A DNA stretch of 64,000 nt from Lysobacteraceae bacterium (GTDB lineage Bacteria; Bdellovibrionota; UBA1018; JAGTJX01). The stretch covers positions 499,889 to 563,888 of the forward strand of contig JAGTJX010000003.1 in assembly GCA_023657465.1 (NCBI GenBank), given 5' to 3'. Shown here one piece after another: positions 29,654 through 38,737 of this stretch. Both the position numbers and the translations under genes were made by a program. Position 1 is the first letter of the stretch. The number at the start of each line of letters is the position of its first letter. The notes beneath the pieces were generated by a model. It saw only the letters and a list, made by a program, of their open reading frames with translations. It had not been told where the DNA came from and ran no database searches.

Positions 29654-29687
29654 AATTTTCCTCTAGTCAAAATGATTGGAGGAAAAA

Positions 29688-31091
29688 ATGAAGCGACGGA
29701 TCGCTGTGTTTTTGGATGCGGATATTAAAAAAGAAACCTTTTCGTTTGATGAACTAGTGATCAGAACCAAGGAGGTGTTCGATAAAAACGGAATGCCAGC
29801 AGTGATAACGCTGATTTTAGAGTGGATGGATGGTGATCTCTGTGACTCACTGACAGGAGTGCAGACAAAAGAGTCATTAGCGAGCATCAACGTAAAACCC
29901 TGCTGTAAAACTCCCTACTTTGTCAGATCGAGCAGAGAACCAAGACGTATTGATTCTACAATAGGAAAAATCAAATTCCACTGGATGAGGCTCAAATGCA
30001 AAAACTGCAAGGAATCGTTCATTCCACTAAGACAGTTTTTAAACGTTAAGCTCTACACGTCGCATACGTTAGAACTCGAAAAAATTGCATGCGAGACTGC
30101 AAGTCACCAGAGCTACAGACGATCAGCAAAACACATGACAGATATTGGTGGCAACCCACTCGGAAAAAGTAAAATCCATACTTGGGTTCAGAAGACTGAC
30201 TCTGCTCACTTAAAGCTGGAACAGAAAGAGCTCGTTACAATTGTTGCAGATGGAACTGGGTATCCCAGGTTCAAGACGAACGCTCAAAAAGAGGATGAGA
30301 AGAAAAACCCAAAACGAGATGCTGACAATAGACCTCTTGAACAAATTCGAGTGATTCTAGGGATCGACAAGCACGGCAAAACGATTCCCATGGGAGTCTT
30401 CAATGAAGAAAAATGGAACGAAATTGGGAGACTCGTAAAACGGGCTAATCACCATCCCAAGCTGAAATCTAAGCCCATAGCAGAGCTCTTAGTGAGTGAT
30501 GGAGAACTAGCCATTGAACGAGGACTAGGAAAACTAGCAAAGACCCAGCAGCGCTGCCAGTGGCATCTGACGTATGATCTGAAGTCTGTGATGAAGTACC
30601 AGGATGAAGCAAATAACGAAGAAACCAGAAAAGTGAAAGACCAGCTTCATGAAATCATGAGAATCCCGCTACCCAACGAACCAAGAGACAAAGTAAAAAC
30701 CGAAGAAATTCTAAATCTAGAGGTCTCGGTATTTAATGCGGAAAGGCAAATGAATGCACTCGTGAAAGATCTGAAAGAAAAGCAGTATTTTCAAACTGCG
30801 ACATATGTAGAGAATGCAAAAGCAAAGCTCTTTAACTATGTCAGAGTCTGGATCAGGACGGGGGATGCTCCTCCGAAAGTGAGCTCCATCATTGAGCGCA
30901 TGATGAGAGAAATAAAACTACGACTCAAACGAATCGGATGCAACTGGAGTCCCAAGGGAGCAGCACAGATGACGAAGATCATTCTGAAGAGATTTACGAA
31001 TTCAAATGAATGGGAAAAATATTGGAGTGATACACTCAAACTAGACGGGAAAATGAAGATTGAATTTGCTGGAGCTCAGTTTGTGAATTGA
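29688..31091 (+). CDS. ISLre2-family (UPF0236-type) transposase
   Basis: DDE transposase of 467 residues. ATG 29688 has the strong ribosome-binding sequence GGAGGA. A Cys-type N-terminal region is present (NVKPCCKTPYF, RLKCKNCKESFIPLRQF). The catalytic triad candidates are Asp in VTIVADGTGYPRF, Asp in AELLVSDGELAIERG and Glu in SSIIERMMREIKLRLKRIG, followed by the typical NWSPKGAAQM. QRCQWHLTYDL matches the family CxWHL-type motif. The frame is full length with no stop, so the element may be active. Confidence 0.87.
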   Translation: MKRRIAVFLDADIKKETFSFDELVIRTKEVFDKNGMPAVITLILEWMDGDLCDSLTGVQTKESLASINVKPCCKTPYFVRSSREPRRIDSTIGKIKFHWMRLKCKNCKESFIPLRQFLNVKLYTSHTLELEKIACETASHQSYRRSAKHMTDIGGNPLGKSKIHTWVQKTDSAHLKLEQKELVTIVADGTGYPRFKTNAQKEDEKKNPKRDADNRPLEQIRVILGIDKHGKTIPMGVFNEEKWNEIGRLVKRANHHPKLKSKPIAELLVSDGELAIERGLGKLAKTQQRCQWHLTYDLKSVMKYQDEANNEETRKVKDQLHEIMRIPLPNEPRDKVKTEEILNLEVSVFNAERQMNALVKDLKEKQYFQTATYVENAKAKLFNYVRVWIRTGDAPPKVSSIIERMMREIKLRLKRIGCNWSPKGAAQMTKIILKRFTNSNEWEKYWSDTLKLDGKMKIEFAGAQFVN

Positions 31092-31356: not shown

Positions 31357-32508
31357 ATGCCCCATAAAAGACCTAGGACTGTTCACGATCTCATCAAGAA
31401 AAAACTCAAATTCAACAGAGTTCTGGCATTGCAGGGTGCGAGACAAACTGGAAAAAGTTTTTTGGCTAGAGAAATACTCTCAAAAGAACTGCAAAAATCA
31501 TTCTATGTTTCTCTTGATTCAAAATCAGAACGAGAATTTGCCGAGAGATCTCCTCAAACCTTCCTCACAAAGCTATCTGAGCATTGTCCGGTCATGATCG
31601 ACGAGGCTCAGAAAGCTCCATCTATTTTTGACGAAATAAAACTACAGGTTGATGTTAATACAGCTCCAGGACAGTACATCCTATTGGGTTCAACCGAGTT
31701 TTCTAGAGAAGTACTAGTCAAAGAGTCTCTGACTGGGCGATTAGGCAGAATTAGAATTTTTCCAATGAGTTTTAGAGAGGCATTAGGTACTAAACATGCC
31801 AAGCCCAGTCGCACAGCTTTCCTCAAACATCTGGATCACGGTGGTATGCCTGGAATTACCTTCGTCAGAGATGCCACAGAAAGAAAATCTCTTGTTCAAG
31901 ATTGGCTGAACACCTTGTGCTTCCGGGATCTTCTGCAATTTAAAAAGCTAAAACTCGATGGTGAATTAGCTCTTGAGATTTTTGAACAAGTCTCTGTTTT
32001 GGAGAATCCTACTCTTGCAGCAATCTCAAAAGCCACTCACACATCTGCTAGACGCGTTGAATCTCACCTCAAGGCATTAGAGCAACTTTTTGCGATCTAT
32101 AGACTTCATGCACATTCGTCGATGAGATCGAGCAAACCTATCTTCCTTCCTCTGGATTCAAGTATCGTGACTTACTTTAGTGGATCCTTTAGTCGAAAAG
32201 CTCAAGTCTCACTACTCAATGAGAGGTTATGTCTATCTCATTACTCTGGAGATCCTCACGCAAAATTTTTTTATTACCATTCACGCTCAAAAAGAATGAT
32301 TCATCTCCTAGAAGAACAAAAAAATAAAAAAATTGCATTTCAGATTTTAGAATACGAAGACTTCTCAGGAGTCGATTTAGAACTCATGAGAGTTTTTTTG
32401 GCGCAACATGAAGGATACCAAGGAACTGTTTTCGCACCGATTACTAGGCAAGAAAAAATACATTCAATTAAACTCAAACCATGGGAAGCTCTCCTCGTTT
32501 TAGATTAG
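31357..32508 (+). CDS. AAA ATPase with DUF4143 domain
   Basis: A 383-residue ATPase of the AAA_14/DUF4143 group. Walker A is LALQGARQTGKSFLAREIL, Walker B is PVMIDEAQKAPSIFDEI, and sensor region YILLGSTEFSREVLVKES is followed by LTGRLGRIRIFPMSFREALG. The C-terminal part has a winged-helix-like segment (LAAISKATHTSARRVESHLK) and a nuclease-like tail ending LKPWEALLVLD. Members are common, often horizontally moved, and their role is not established. It is a single gene just outside the insertion sequence, with an AT-rich promoter region at 31300-31356. Confidence 0.82.
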   Translation: MPHKRPRTVHDLIKKKLKFNRVLALQGARQTGKSFLAREILSKELQKSFYVSLDSKSEREFAERSPQTFLTKLSEHCPVMIDEAQKAPSIFDEIKLQVDVNTAPGQYILLGSTEFSREVLVKESLTGRLGRIRIFPMSFREALGTKHAKPSRTAFLKHLDHGGMPGITFVRDATERKSLVQDWLNTLCFRDLLQFKKLKLDGELALEIFEQVSVLENPTLAAISKATHTSARRVESHLKALEQLFAIYRLHAHSSMRSSKPIFLPLDSSIVTYFSGSFSRKAQVSLLNERLCLSHYSGDPHAKFFYYHSRSKRMIHLLEEQKNKKIAFQILEYEDFSGVDLELMRVFLAQHEGYQGTVFAPITRQEKIHSIKLKPWEALLVLD

Positions 32509-32580: not shown

Positions 32581-34197
32581 ATGGATCATGAACTCTTCGA
32601 GTGGCTCCTCCTCCTAGGACGCTGGCTCCACATCGTTGTCGGAATTGCGTGGATTGGAAACTCGCTTTTCTTCATGTGGCTCGATCGTACTTTCGAATTC
32701 AACGCAGAATCCAAGACTCCTGGACACATCGGAGATCTCTGGATGGTTCATGGCGGCGGATTCTACAAAGTTGAGAAACTCCAAATGGGGCCTACCAAAG
32801 TCCCTGCACACCTTCACTGGTTCAAATGGGAATCCTACTGGACTTGGATGAGCGGAATCTTCCTACTCGGAATGATCTTCTACGCAGGTAACGGAACATT
32901 CCTCCTCGACTCTTCTGTTTCATCGATTACTTTCATGCAAGCATTGGGACTCAGCTTCGCGTCTCTCTTAGTGTCTTGGTTCTTCTACGACTTCTTGTGG
33001 GAATCCAAACTCACAAAAACTCAACCAATCCTAGGTCACATCCTCACTCTCGCTTGGTTCGGTGGAATGGTTTATTTCCTCTGTCACACGCTCAGTGGCA
33101 GAGCTGCCTACATCCACATCGGTGGAATGCTGGGGACTTGGATGACTGCGAATGTGTTCCTTCGAATCATCCCTAGGCAAGTGTTGATGGTCGAAGCATC
33201 GAAGCGTGGCGAACCCGTCAATCAAGAATGGGGCAAAAACGCTAAGAACAGATCCACGCACAACACTTACTTCACGCTACCTGTGATCTTCATCATGCTG
33301 AGCAACCACTTTCCTTCCACTTATGGGAATAAGTACAACTGGATCATATTACTGCTGATGAGTGCAGCAGGAGCAGCAATCCGTGAATTCTTCGTCACGA
33401 GAATCAAGAATCCACCGAGATCGAAAGTCTTCGGCGCGATTGCAGTAGCAATCATTCTCTTCGTTATTTTCTTCAGTCGCGAGAATACAGGCTCTGCAAA
33501 AGTAGCTACACAGAATCATCATGAATCCGAAGCCATAACATCACCTACAGCAACGATTTCAGGAACAGGTTCCATCTACGGAATTGTGGGCTTCTCTGGA
33601 ACTATCCCACAATCTGAGAAACTCCTCCTTCCACTGGTCTGCACACCAGACAAAAAGGCCGATACTTACGCAAACAAAATCATCATCAACAAAGATGGCA
33701 TGATAAAAAACGCACTCGTCAGAATCATTGACGGACTAGGTAAACAAGTCTTCACTGACATCCCATCTCAACCTGTCGTCATCGATCAGAAGAGCTGTCA
33801 ATATGAACCCCGAGTAGTTGGTGTCAGAGTCGAGCAGAAGGTTGAGTTCTTAAACAGCGATGATACCTTCCACAACGTGCGATCACTTTCTAAGAATAAT
33901 GAGAACTTCAACGAGGCCATGCCTGCTAAGAACGACCGAATCACTAAGGTCTTCAACAAGCCTGAAATTTTCGTTCAATCCAAATGTAGCGTGCATCCTT
34001 GGATGAGTGCTTCTATTGCAGTGATGGATCACCCCTATTTTAGTGTTACGAATGAAGCTGGCTTTTATGAGATTAAGAATATACCCCCAGGCAACTACAT
34101 GGTCGAAGTCTGGCATGAAGTTTTCGGCACTCATAAAACTCGAATTGGAATCAAAGCAAACCAAAGTGATAAAATCGATTTTGGATTCAAAAGATAA
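32581..34197 (+). CDS. puuD: Membrane urate oxidase (PuuD-type) fused to a cupredoxin-like domain
   Basis: Inner-membrane enzyme of 538 residues expected to oxidise urate to 5-hydroxyisourate. Residues 1-300 match the PuuD/Urate_ox_N domain: LHWFKWESYWTWMSGIFLLG, SGRAAYIHIGGMLGTWMTAN, and NRSTHNTYFTLPVIFIMLSN, with about eight membrane helices. Known PuuD ends in a cytochrome c domain, but no CxxCH is present here. Instead residues 335-538 form a beta domain with candidate type 1 copper ligands His431 (DDTFHNV), Cys469, His472 and Met475 (CSVHPWM), followed by a carboxypeptidase-regulatory-like strand set. The copper site would replace the heme as electron acceptor (inference). The next gene, hiuH, starts 9 bases later. 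Confidence 0.88.
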   Translation: MDHELFEWLLLLGRWLHIVVGIAWIGNSLFFMWLDRTFEFNAESKTPGHIGDLWMVHGGGFYKVEKLQMGPTKVPAHLHWFKWESYWTWMSGIFLLGMIFYAGNGTFLLDSSVSSITFMQALGLSFASLLVSWFFYDFLWESKLTKTQPILGHILTLAWFGGMVYFLCHTLSGRAAYIHIGGMLGTWMTANVFLRIIPRQVLMVEASKRGEPVNQEWGKNAKNRSTHNTYFTLPVIFIMLSNHFPSTYGNKYNWIILLLMSAAGAAIREFFVTRIKNPPRSKVFGAIAVAIILFVIFFSRENTGSAKVATQNHHESEAITSPTATISGTGSIYGIVGFSGTIPQSEKLLLPLVCTPDKKADTYANKIIINKDGMIKNALVRIIDGLGKQVFTDIPSQPVVIDQKSCQYEPRVVGVRVEQKVEFLNSDDTFHNVRSLSKNNENFNEAMPAKNDRITKVFNKPEIFVQSKCSVHPWMSASIAVMDHPYFSVTNEAGFYEIKNIPPGNYMVEVWHEVFGTHKTRIGIKANQSDKIDFGFKR

Positions 34198-34206
34198 GGA
34201 CGATAC

Positions 34207-34530
34207 ATGATTAGCACACACATTCTGGATACAAGCATAGGAGCTCCGGCCTCAGGAGTCGCAGTCAAGCTCGAGAAACAAGAGGGCAAGGACTGGAGCA
34301 CAATTAGCTCCGGATTCACCAATGCTGACGGGAGACTCCAGTTTGATGTAGAGATCCAACCAGGCAATCACAGAATTGTTTTTGAGATTGAAGATTATCT
34401 GAAGAAGTCCGGCAAGGAATTCTTCTTCTTAAACGTTCCAGTGAGTTTCAAAATCGAAAACACAAAACGCAATTACCATGTTCCCTTACTTTTAAACCCA
34501 TTCGGATTCTCAACTTACCGTGGCAGTTAA
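34207..34530 (+). CDS. hiuH: 5-Hydroxyisourate hydrolase (transthyretin-like)
   Basis: A 107-residue enzyme hydrolysing 5-hydroxyisourate to OHCU (2-oxo-4-hydroxy-4-carboxy-5-ureidoimidazoline). The signatures are all present: N-terminal STHILDTSIGAPASGVAVKL with the active His, TNADGRLQF, and the C-terminal tetrapeptide YRGS that closes the active site. Length fits the cytosolic bacterial type. It sits between the urate oxidase and the large ureide protein, matching reaction order. Its last 11 bases overlap the GTG start of the next gene. Confidence 0.96.
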   Translation: MISTHILDTSIGAPASGVAVKLEKQEGKDWSTISSGFTNADGRLQFDVEIQPGNHRIVFEIEDYLKKSGKEFFFLNVPVSFKIENTKRNYHVPLLLNPFGFSTYRGS

Positions 34531-37500
34531 ATCATCTTACCTCAGCTTCTTTGATCAACTGGAGAGTCTCACTCGAGATCAACTCACACGTGTGCTCAAG
34601 CAGCGCACTTTGGATCGGGCGTTTATCGATCAGAGGACTAACGCTTGCGCAGAACTCAATAAACTCCTTCATGTAGACATCTTGGACACCTACTACGAAA
34701 CCGTCATTGGTCATGAAGACGGCAATGGAAGAATCGTCATAGGACCAAGATCTGCTGAATACACAAAGCCAATGGGTAAACCCATTGCCGATCTGCCCGA
34801 GCACCTGAAGGGCTATCACATCACTACATTCAGTCCTCCTAGCAATGAGAAAGTCTGTACGACTGCACTCAGTGTACTGGGCATCTCACTAAGAGATGAA
34901 CCAGAACTAGTCTCAGAACTCATTGATAAGTCGCAGGAACGAATCAAATGGGGAGCTGACTTCGAAGACTCACTAGTTCCAACCAAAGAAACTCTCGCGA
35001 TTGCTCAAGGCAATCTCAACAAGTGTTACTCGCAGAAAATTCATAGAGCAGCTCTTCCTATCAAGCGTTTACCTGGAATTGCGCTCTCTCATCACCTGGA
35101 TGAATTCGCTAAGCATGTATTTGAGCACTGGAGAAACCCAGAGGCTCTCACGTTCTATATTCCTAAGCTAGAGAACGAAGAAGAAGCGGCCTATATCCAC
35201 TCCGTGGTATCGAGTGCCGAGAAGTTACTGAAGGAAGAACACTCTGAGTACAAACTTGGATCAATCCGTCTCATCATTGTGTTTGAGAATCCAAGACTCA
35301 TCTACCGAGCGAATGAAGTGATCGATGCGCTTTACCCCTACTTCGCTGGCGCCTCACTGGGTTGGCATGATTACTTGGCTGCTACCGCTCGTATTTTCAA
35401 AGAAGATCCAAACTACAGAATACCTGCGAAGTCAGATCCCAACATCGTCATCAGCCACATCAAGTCTTCTCATGAACTCATTGCTCATGTCGTAGGCGGT
35501 CGCGGCGGTCTTGCGATTGGCGGAATGTTTGGTGTGATTCCTGAATCTACTGAACTTTATAGCCCTGAGTTTCAAGTCGTGATGAAGGGCTTCATCCGTG
35601 ATGTCATCACTCAGCTGAGACGCGGACTGATAGGCTTCTGGGTCGCTCATCCTGCTTTGATTCGATACGGTGTTGCACTCGTAGAAGTCTGGAAACAGAA
35701 AGATCCTAATAAGCTAGAAGAACTCGTGATTGAGTTACTGAAGAAAGAACATCAGGCAGATATCCTGGAGTTCCTACGCGCTCCCGATGTCGCAAGCCTG
35801 AGTGCCACTGAACCTCTCTATCCAAGATCACGTAGTGCTAATAATGACCCAAAAGAAATCCGTTACAACGTCAGGCAATCCCTCGCCTATCTCACTGAGT
35901 GGCTTACAGGTAATGCAAACGCAGCCCTTCCTGCGCAACTGGGTGGAAAATCCGTACAAGTTCTAGATGATCTCGCCACTGTCGAGCGATCGCGATGGCA
36001 AGTCTGGCATGAGATTCATCACGGGAGATTCGAACTCTCTGAGTTCTTAAGGATCGTTCATCAAGAAATGAGATTCATTCATAAACCGACACAAGCGATG
36101 AATATCCTCATCAAGCTCATGACAGATGAATTCCCAGTAGAGAGTGCGACTCAGCTCCTTATCCCCGCACTTCGCGCCAACCACGAAGTGACTTTAGCTC
36201 CCCACATCCAAAGATTCAACGAGTACTTCTCTTCTTGCGGAAGCATGAGATTCGCAAAGTCTCTCTCAAGCAATATCTCTTTAGATATCACTCAAGCGTC
36301 GATGATCGTGATGAGCTTCTCTCAAGAAGAAATCATCGAAGCCGCAAGCTTCCACGGTGATATCGGAGAGAATAAGAAGAACCTAGATCTCACCGCAACC
36401 CAGGAACAAGCACTCGTACTCAAGGAAGGCGATGATAAGAGAGCAGAGCTGAAGAAGCTCGGCGTGAAGTACTTCAAGAAGTACGGATTCAAATATCTCA
36501 TTTCTGCTCAAGGTAAGACGAGCGAGCAGATCAAAGCCAATCTCGATCAAAGACTGAATGGTGACAAGAAGACTGAGCTTGAGAATGCTAGGAAGGCGCT
36601 CTGGGAGATTGCACAGAAGAGACTTGCATCCATCGCAGAAAAAGATTTAAAAGGTAAAATCGAACAAGCGCTCAAAAAGTACGAAGTCACTGGCGCACAG
36701 ATCTCCGTATCAAGTGCCAAAAACGCTATACAGACTCTCTCCTTCGGTAGCACTACCACTGATACTTGGTTTGAACTTGCATCCCTAAGCAAAACCATCG
36801 CTACAGTGTTCTCTCTTGAGTACTTCAAGAAGCACAATATTTCTCTCACTTCATCTGTGAACGCTCTCTTCGAGGGCACAGAATCTCCTTACAGGATTCC
36901 ATCAGGCGATGCAGTGACCCTCACTCATCTCCTCAATCACAGTGCTCTCAACATGCACTACGTGAACGGAGTTCCACGAGCCAAAGAAATGCCAGAGATC
37001 TCTAAATGGCTGAAAAACATCAAAGTGGCAAACGAACCCGGTTCCTCATTCCAATACTCAGGTGGAGGATTCCTCGTACTTGAACACTTAATTGAAAGCC
37101 TAGAGAAAAAGTCCATTCGAGAGCTCACCCATGAGTTCTTCCAAACTTTGGGGATTCAGAATATCTCCTTTGATCAGACGAAGCTTGCAGAGCACACCGA
37201 AACCAGAGACTACAAAATGTTCCCAGCGTTTGCAGCAGGAGCTATTGGCCAAGCAAGTAGCATGACTCTCCTACTTGAGAAACTCACAGTTGCTTACCAC
37301 GACCCGCTCGCCACTGGTCCCATCTCTCACGAGACAGCAGTTCTCATGCTTCAAGATACAAATACTTCAAGTCAGTCCTTCATGGGCGTGAATATTGGTC
37401 TTGGAGTATTCATTGCTGAAGCGGGACGAAACAGACTTGCGATTCACCAAGGTGCAAACGACGGTTACCGCTGTCTCTTCGTATACTGCTACCGAGGTCC

Positions 37501-38737
37501 AAATCAGGGCTTAAGTTTTACAATCCTCTGCCAAGGCGATAACAACGGAATGCTTTTCGTTGCTCGTACCGCTCAACTCATCCTCACAGAACTCAGAATG
37601 AGTGGAATCGATACGTATCAATTTAAATCTGATTTTAATTCCTCGAATTTCAAGCAAGAAGAGATCGTCAATCTAGGATACAAGAACCTCGTATTCTCTG
37701 CATTCAAGCCTGATCTCCCTGAAGCCATCACAAGAGATTATCTAGAAGATCCACTCTCTCGTTACAATCACGCCATCGGTGCGAAAATCATCGAAGTCAG
37801 TAATCAACGATTCGCCAGGGCTGAAAATCTCATCTCTCCTTACGAGCCTGTATTCGATCCTGAACTCTACGGAGCTCAAGGGAAGATCATGGATAGCTGG
37901 GAGAGCGTGAGACATAATCCTAAACCTACGGACTGGATGATCTTGGAACTTAAGAAACCATCAGCAATCTCGACTGTCTCCTTCTCTACGAAGTTTCATA
38001 ACGGCAATCATCCTTCACATGCGATGATCGATGGTCTTGTGCCTAAGACTGCACTTGATGGTCACGCAATCAAATTCGTAAAAACGACAGATTCCAAGAC
38101 TGTGTTCAAGCAGATCAAAGTCTCGATGTTCCCAGATGGAGGCCTGACCCGTCTAGGTCTTTACGGAGATGATTTCCCTGCTGAACTGATTAAGTCTTTC
38201 TCATACCCTAATCCTATCCCTCACTCGAAGAAGCCTTTAGCTCCGAAGTACACACCTACTCCTGAGATGATCGAAGAAAATTGGAAGAGGCATCCTAAGA
38301 ACACACCAGTAGATGTTGCATGCAGTGCTTACGGTGGGACGATCGTCAGAGCTTCTAATGAACACTATGGACCTGCATCACAAGTCATCTCACCTTATCC
38401 ACCACTGGATATGTTTGATGGTTTTGAGTCTGCACGGAGTAGAACTCCAGGACACTTCGAAGAACTCGAAATCAAACTCGCTAGAAAATGTAAAATCAAC
38501 ATGATCGAAATTGATTACAAATTCTATGTGAACAATAATCCAAGAGAGCTCAAGATTTCAGCTAAGATCCATGATGAATGGAAAGAGATCGTTCCTCAGA
38601 CTTACGTGAAGCCCTTCGCTGCAAACAAGATTCAGCTTCGGATCAATGAGTCACAAGAAATTGAATTCTTAAAATTCACTGTGATTCCTGACGGTGGGAT
38701 GAATAGACTCAGAGTCTATTCCACTTCATTAAATTGA
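34520..38737 (+). CDS. Four-domain ureide-catabolism fusion: malate synthase-like, OHCU decarboxylase, serine hydrolase-like, allantoicase
   Basis: A 1405-residue cytosolic protein starting at GTG 34520, overlapping hiuH by 11 bases. Residues 1-540: malate synthase family, with KWGADFEDSLVPT (143-155), Mg-type Glu256 (IIVFENP), Asp284 (GWHDYLAATARIF), GFWVAHPAL and catalytic Asp484 in DDLATVERSRWQVW. Residues 560-706: OHCU decarboxylase, with CGSMRFAK (573-580), His612 in FHGDIG and YFKKYGFKYLISAQGKTSEQ. Residues 707-1025: beta-lactamase/DD-peptidase-like, with SxxK Ser755-Lys758 (SLSK), Tyr846 (YSG) and His976 (HQG). Residues 1040-1405: allantoicase with both repeats (RFARAENLISPYEP, and TIVRASNEHYGPASQVISPY). 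No allantoinase is seen, so the hydrolase domain may open the allantoin ring (inference). Confidence 0.9.
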   Translation: MAVKSSYLSFFDQLESLTRDQLTRVLKQRTLDRAFIDQRTNACAELNKLLHVDILDTYYETVIGHEDGNGRIVIGPRSAEYTKPMGKPIADLPEHLKGYHITTFSPPSNEKVCTTALSVLGISLRDEPELVSELIDKSQERIKWGADFEDSLVPTKETLAIAQGNLNKCYSQKIHRAALPIKRLPGIALSHHLDEFAKHVFEHWRNPEALTFYIPKLENEEEAAYIHSVVSSAEKLLKEEHSEYKLGSIRLIIVFENPRLIYRANEVIDALYPYFAGASLGWHDYLAATARIFKEDPNYRIPAKSDPNIVISHIKSSHELIAHVVGGRGGLAIGGMFGVIPESTELYSPEFQVVMKGFIRDVITQLRRGLIGFWVAHPALIRYGVALVEVWKQKDPNKLEELVIELLKKEHQADILEFLRAPDVASLSATEPLYPRSRSANNDPKEIRYNVRQSLAYLTEWLTGNANAALPAQLGGKSVQVLDDLATVERSRWQVWHEIHHGRFELSEFLRIVHQEMRFIHKPTQAMNILIKLMTDEFPVESATQLLIPALRANHEVTLAPHIQRFNEYFSSCGSMRFAKSLSSNISLDITQASMIVMSFSQEEIIEAASFHGDIGENKKNLDLTATQEQALVLKEGDDKRAELKKLGVKYFKKYGFKYLISAQGKTSEQIKANLDQRLNGDKKTELENARKALWEIAQKRLASIAEKDLKGKIEQALKKYEVTGAQISVSSAKNAIQTLSFGSTTTDTWFELASLSKTIATVFSLEYFKKHNISLTSSVNALFEGTESPYRIPSGDAVTLTHLLNHSALNMHYVNGVPRAKEMPEISKWLKNIKVANEPGSSFQYSGGGFLVLEHLIESLEKKSIRELTHEFFQTLGIQNISFDQTKLAEHTETRDYKMFPAFAAGAIGQASSMTLLLEKLTVAYHDPLATGPISHETAVLMLQDTNTSSQSFMGVNIGLGVFIAEAGRNRLAIHQGANDGYRCLFVYCYRGPNQGLSFTILCQGDNNGMLFVARTAQLILTELRMSGIDTYQFKSDFNSSNFKQEEIVNLGYKNLVFSAFKPDLPEAITRDYLEDPLSRYNHAIGAKIIEVSNQRFARAENLISPYEPVFDPELYGAQGKIMDSWESVRHNPKPTDWMILELKKPSAISTVSFSTKFHNGNHPSHAMIDGLVPKTALDGHAIKFVKTTDSKTVFKQIKVSMFPDGGLTRLGLYGDDFPAELIKSFSYPNPIPHSKKPLAPKYTPTPEMIEENWKRHPKNTPVDVACSAYGGTIVRASNEHYGPASQVISPYPPLDMFDGFESARSRTPGHFEELEIKLARKCKINMIEIDYKFYVNNNPRELKISAKIHDEWKEIVPQTYVKPFAANKIQLRINESQEIEFLKFTVIPDGGMNRLRVYSTSLN

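Follow-up and report, generated by a model that had tools for sequence, protein, structure and literature searches.

The DNA analysed here, referred to as the window, is a stretch of 64,000 nucleotides from Lysobacteraceae bacterium (GTDB phylum Bdellovibrionota; contig JAGTJX010000003.1, positions 499,889 to 563,888), and the element in question is a group of three genes within it whose products would carry urate to malate. A urate oxidase gene is followed after a gap of 9 bases by a gene for 5-hydroxyisourate (HIU) hydrolase, which overlaps by 11 bases the gene of a four-domain fusion protein, all three lying on the forward strand (Table 1). This packing had been described in an earlier note on the same DNA and was found again at the same coordinates, and the note's interpretation of it as a compact urate-to-malate operon is now well supported by Pfam domains and by recurrence in relatives. 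Since the relatives share both the gene order and the architecture, the operon is not a product of chance. Promoter-like and terminator-like sites at the operon did not exceed the count in shuffled sequence, so that it is the gene packing that argues for a single transcript. Neither the beta-lactamase-fold domain of the fusion nor the unusual C-terminal part of the urate oxidase is mentioned in the earlier note.

Table 1. Features of the urate-to-malate operon, in window coordinates (activities are predicted)
Feature	Coordinates	Strand	Details
ORF 1, PuuD-type urate oxidase	32581-34197	+	538 aa; N-terminal membrane domain Urate_ox_N, residues 5-296, and C-terminal cupredoxin-like domain
Cupredoxin core of ORF 1	33763-34029	+	residues 395-483; predicted type-1 copper ligands H431, C469, H472, M475; motif CSVHPWM
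ORF 2, 5-hydroxyisourate hydrolase (transthyretin-related)	34207-34530	+	107 aa; TIGR02962 124 bits, cut-off 87.45
ORF 3, four-domain fusion	34520-38737	+	1405 aa, GTG start; malate synthase, OHCU decarboxylase, beta-lactamase-fold serine hydrolase, allantoicase
Malate synthase domain, divergent	34520-36154	+	boundary approximate; PF01274 64.7 bits; aligned with E. coli malate synthase A 3cuz
OHCU decarboxylase domain	36290-36628	+	residues 591-703; PF09349 70.6 bits
Serine hydrolase domain (S12-like), candidate allantoinase	36653-37567	+	residues 712-1016; motifs S755-L-S-K758, Y846-S-G, H976-Q-G
Allantoicase domain, two repeats	37778-38725	+	residues 1087-1402

When the genome of the window and its relatives were searched with the 1405-residue protein, fusion homologues were found in 13 of 58 genomes (the window's own counted), two of which are truncated at contig ends. 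A scan of the named genome contigs with the serine hydrolase domain as query gave 80 loci, mostly from Bdellovibrionota, plus one clade of Planctomycetota. The order malate synthase, OHCU decarboxylase, serine hydrolase, allantoicase is kept in one frame at 72 of these loci, which is every one of the 72 complete fusions; five of the remaining eight are cut by a contig end and three are split by a stop or a frameshift. HIU hydrolase is a neighbour of the fusion at 64 of the 80 loci and xanthine dehydrogenase at 31, and moeA and guanine-deaminase-like genes were also seen close by in relatives. In a tree, the rows from Planctomycetota and those from Bdellovibrionota fall on separate sides; a handful of rows assigned to other phyla seem to be bins with wrong labels.

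The third domain of the fusion belongs to the beta-lactamase/S12 superfamily, with a match to PF00144 of 78.0 bits (cut-off 27) and an SxxK motif. Its alignment comprised 77 sequences (L139, L144, L145 and L147 of the 80 loci were left out, their domain match being short or split), and in all of them the serine and lysine of SxxK (S755, K758), the tyrosine of YSG and the histidine, glycine and asparagine of HQGAN are unchanged; 38 of the 367 window residues are invariant across the whole set. The fold was predicted with a mean pLDDT of 93.8; Foldseek matches it to an esterase (E 4.7e-17), and in VIA a DL-peptidase (Z 32.6, root-mean-square deviation (rmsd) 3.0, 327 residues aligned) is tied with a D-amino acid amidase (Z 31.9, rmsd 2.7, 304 aligned). 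The D-amino acid amidase 2efu, the IS11 esterase 7spn and LACTB 7v21 have the same fold and an SxxK-type active site, but the window domain is cytosolic, is part of a purine-degrading fusion and is just 16-18% identical to them. Nor does it resemble a class C beta-lactamase, since the NCBIfam class C model gave 26.4 bits against a cut-off of 415 and the motifs are YSG and HQG, not the YxN and KTG of that class. No signal-peptide-like stretch, membrane helix or hydrophobic N-terminus was found in the fusion; because a signal-peptide-like stretch is absent, the domain is not a periplasmic beta-lactamase or penicillin-binding protein, and a cell-wall or antibiotic role, also considered, was judged unlikely in view of the missing export signal.

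A route from urate to malate needs an allantoinase, and the step between the OHCU decarboxylase and the allantoicase must therefore be filled. To our knowledge two kinds of this enzyme are known, AllB and PuuE, the latter having been found as an allantoinase analogue, and the folds of the known allantoinases are quite different from the beta-lactamase fold. In the window's own genome the best match to AllB (TIGR03178) reached 242.8 bits against a cut-off of 357.85 and is a dihydroorotase by NCBIfam; PuuE (TIGR03212) had no match there, and none above cut-off in 22 genomes. Among the genomes behind 50 named loci, a set that partly overlaps the phylum set described below, AllB (0/50) and PuuE (0/50) were likewise not found above cut-off. 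The metabolic outline of the earlier note holds for the most part, but its consecutive activities were an assumption: a known allantoinase and the ureidoglycolate lyase AllA were not found in the genome.

Across the phylum, allantoicase was found in 96 of 368 genomes, and these were sorted with the serine hydrolase profile into 66 that carry the domain and are not of genus g82, 25 in which allantoicase occurs only as a stand-alone protein, three from g82 and two left unassigned (G208, G218). AllB was above cut-off in none of the 66 domain-bearing genomes (0/13 and 0/53) and in 22 of the 25 stand-alone ones (4/5 and 18/20); the other three comprise G010 and G392, with partial matches of 308 and 312 bits, and G219, which is 67% complete and had none. 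Counted by genus, AllB occurs in 0 of 22 domain-bearing versus 14 of 16 stand-alone genera, and in g15 and g19, the two genera with members of both kinds, AllB is swapped for the domain. Fisher's exact test returned 3e-18 for genomes and 1e-8 for genera, values that are too optimistic given shared ancestry. In those stand-alone genomes that were inspected, AllB adjoins allantoicase.

Other candidates for the allantoinase were examined and set aside. The AllB matches below cut-off in fusion genomes proved, in all 18 that were classified, to be dihydroorotases or dihydropyrimidinases. An amidohydrolase next to puuD (L046, L047, L050) was checked in L046 and L047, where the best assignment was guanine deaminase at 276-297 bits, below the curated cut-offs, and the coordinates of an AllB-like frame in L069 (177 bits) coincide with a dihydropyrimidinase that had been checked as L163.

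The urate oxidase that opens the operon is of the PuuD type in its N-terminal half, where Urate_ox_N matches in full length (352.6 bits, cut-off 26.9, profile positions 3-292 of 295). PuuD itself (Doniselli et al. 2015, PMC4562309) has the same membrane domain (DUF989) and ends in a CxxCH cytochrome c, whereas the window protein ends in a cupredoxin with H, C, H and M. The CxxCH motif is absent from the window urate oxidase and from all 34 aligned rows, and the four predicted ligands are unchanged in all 34. This alignment was drawn from 37 cupredoxin loci, 34 of which had a frame of more than 450 residues with both domains; L071 was dropped for a broken N-terminus, which left 33 plus the window. 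The cupredoxin model superimposes in VIA on plastocyanin (Z 12.2, rmsd 1.6, 84 aligned) and on amicyanin (Z 11.2, rmsd 1.9, 86 aligned), the two being tied, and the HNV and CSVHPW segments align, weakly, with solved blue-copper proteins (phmmer, best E 0.00066). The C-terminal half is accordingly predicted by the model to be a cupredoxin fold with H, C, H and M as ligands; the membrane half of the model, being of low confidence, was left uninterpreted. Electrons would then go from urate to the copper domain.

At the 80 fusion loci the urate oxidase is of the cupredoxin type in 37 and of the cytochrome c type in 11, neither being present within the available DNA in 32. The former lies on the same strand as the fusion in all 37 cases, the latter on the opposite strand in all 11. 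Since G219 has a cupredoxin urate oxidase without the fusion, the two are separable traits. Side by side with these types, PuuD membrane domains with neither a cupredoxin nor a cytochrome c match downstream were seen at L102:5282-6202, L114:757-1692 and L127:2076-3005, and in genome G049 one frame (L056:1287-3962) joins PuuD with cytochrome c to an AllB allantoinase, a further fusion of the same pathway.

Most of the domains belong to well-known families. ORF 2 passes the equivalog model for HIU hydrolase and also matches the Pfam transthyretin/HIUase family (115.7 bits, cut-off 25.3). The OHCU decarboxylase domain lies above its family cut-off of 24 and under those of the equivalog models; the allantoicase domain matches PF03561 in two stretches (173.7 bits, cut-off 27) and reaches 189.2 bits with the equivalog TIGR02961, whose cut-off is 277.9. 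The malate synthase domain is above the cut-off for the TIM barrel family (26.4) and scores 78.3 bits with the malate synthase A equivalog TIGR01344, against a cut-off of 594.5. In the alignment with 3cuz it retains the acidic active-site positions. Besides the fused copy, the genome has a second malate synthase-like gene at G000:C1:368860-369879, with one TAG inside its read-through frame.

Taken in order, these proteins suggest the following route. The membrane-bound urate oxidase would oxidise urate and pass the electrons to its own blue-copper domain instead of a cytochrome c, and HIU hydrolase would carry out the second step. The cytosolic polyprotein would then take over: its OHCU decarboxylase domain would yield allantoin, the beta-lactamase-fold domain would open the hydantoin ring by way of an acyl-enzyme on S755 and its hydrolysis to allantoate, and the allantoicase domain would produce urea and ureidoglycolate. 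Allantoicase is described as acting on ureidoglycolate as well, so that glyoxylate might be formed by this domain itself, spontaneously or by a further enzyme, before the N-terminal malate synthase domain would join it to acetyl-CoA. The sequences show directly which domains are present, how they are ordered and conserved, that the serine-hydrolase motif and the copper ligands are intact and that known allantoinases are missing; every catalytic activity is inferred, most of all the role as allantoinase and the mechanism by an acyl-enzyme. Because a cytosolic serine hydrolase is placed after the domain that makes allantoin and before the one that consumes allantoate, and because of the replacement pattern, the domain is most simply taken as an allantoinase. 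That the operon carries urate to malate with this domain as a serine-based allantoinase seems to us reasonably probable; the comparative evidence for the candidate is strong, with genus g82 as its one clear exception.

Several observations weigh against this proposal. Fold and motifs leave the substrate unfixed, as esterases, peptidases and amidases have the same ones. Many of the genomes are incomplete metagenome-assembled genomes, related genomes are not independent, and the AllB scans of the phylum (the sets of 53 and 20 genomes) and of the 50 loci took E <= 1e-70, so that short AllB fragments could escape. The allantoicase genomes G208 and G218 have neither the serine hydrolase domain nor AllB, the dihydropyrimidinases that some fusion genomes have might accept allantoin, and AllA (PF04115) is absent from all 13 fusion genomes checked for it and occurs in three of five with stand-alone allantoicase. 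On the side of the urate oxidase, Pfam Copper-bind gave 13.3 bits, under its cut-off of 21.2. The malate synthase domain of the window begins some tens of residues later than in relatives and is without several short stretches that nearly all of them keep, including the KIVQVKW region; it may be impaired, and the window fusion sits on a long branch of the tree. Finally, in genus g82, G228 combines a serine hydrolase-allantoicase protein with AllB above cut-off, the latter as an AllB-OHCU decarboxylase fusion, and in G229 part of such an AllB fusion is seen at a contig start. Because g82 holds both, a strict exclusion of AllB by the domain fails.

In the same genus the serine hydrolase is fused to allantoicase alone, which shows that these two remain together even where the rest of the fusion is absent. 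Such two-domain proteins were seen at L172, L173, L174, L175 and L178, in part alongside an AllB-OHCU decarboxylase fusion, and the arrangement is possibly an intermediate or a second route.

Among the alternatives, the one that survives best, though we think it unlikely, is that the domain serves as an accessory serine hydrolase (an esterase, amidase or peptidase) or as a structural part and takes no part in the main pathway, allantoin being opened by a promiscuous dihydroorotase or dihydropyrimidinase. Enzymes of these two kinds do occur in fusion genomes and S12-like folds are functionally diverse, but the active-site residues are unchanged in 77 of 77 sequences, the domain has the same place in every complete fusion, and AllB is absent in 66 of 66 genomes, yet genomes with AllB have equally high matches below cut-off too. 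More doubtful still is the idea that the domain splits ureidoglycolate to glyoxylate for the malate synthase, as an analogue of the lyase or hydrolase, with allantoin opened by an unrecognised enzyme. The distribution of AllA given above would fit it, as would the finding that AllA is near none of the 80 fusion loci. In G230 of genus g82, however, AllA lies directly downstream (3') of the serine hydrolase-allantoicase frame on the same strand, and a serine hydrolase beside AllA speaks against a ureidoglycolate-lyase role; moreover, the domain precedes allantoicase in domain order, the loss of AllB is a stronger pattern than that of AllA, and allantoicase itself is, as just mentioned, credited with the use of ureidoglycolate. 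That the operon is a usual set of purine-degradation genes, some of them fused, with no new enzyme and an overlooked canonical allantoinase, as most domains from well-known families and the nearness of xanthine dehydrogenase at 31 of the 80 loci might suggest, is highly improbable, as known allantoinases were not found in the fusion genomes searched and the urate oxidase is without cytochrome c.

The genome search that had been proposed for the flanking steps gave a mixed result, in that a xanthine dehydrogenase-type gene is present on another contig (G000:C4:143473-144438), whereas AllA, sought as the ureidoglycolate enzyme, is missing from the genome, as is the classical uricase PF01014. A 559-residue frame with a weak amidohydrolase match lies just before the xanthine dehydrogenase genes (L067:1168-2844), perhaps a purine deaminase. 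Upstream of the operon, judged by eye, are a transposase-like frame with a TTG start (29676-31091) and an AAA-type-ATPase-like protein (31357-32508).

With the canonical AllB/PuuE allantoin pathway the operon shares its intermediates, and relatives cluster puuD, allB, alc, uraD and hiuH; here, in contrast, a beta-lactamase-fold domain inside a four-domain fusion stands in place of the absent AllB and PuuE. The statement that malate synthase belongs to the allantoin regulon of Streptomyces found no confirmation in a literature search. In fish and in an apicomplexan (PMC8919083, PMC6320678), malate synthase has been proposed to act on purine-derived glyoxylate from allantoate breakdown; the genes are separate there, unlike the malate synthase fused here with three other domains. 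A recent Pseudomonas paper (PMC12694930) holds malate synthase to be ill suited, on the ground that allantoin breakdown gives no acetyl-CoA. A predator or scavenger, to which the operon may be of advantage as the earlier note supposed, would escape this limit if it digested lipids along with nucleic acids. A search of the open literature yielded no account of such a fusion, nor of an allantoinase with a beta-lactamase fold or a urate oxidase with a cupredoxin domain, most subscription papers lying outside the reach of that search.

On balance we lean slightly towards a history in which a third, unrelated kind of allantoinase, a serine hydrolase of beta-lactamase fold, arose inside a multifunctional OHCU-to-malate polyprotein, which spread in Bdellovibrionota and in Planctomycetota and took the place of the metal enzyme AllB, accompanied by a blue-copper form of the membrane urate oxidase. 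The candidate would be a non-metal allantoinase with a fold best known from antibiotic resistance, named from gene fusion and the replacement pattern, and the urate oxidase beside it would pass its electrons to copper, not haem. If this is true, it would close a gap that family-based annotation leaves in the purine degradation of many members of the phylum to which the predatory Bdellovibrio belongs.

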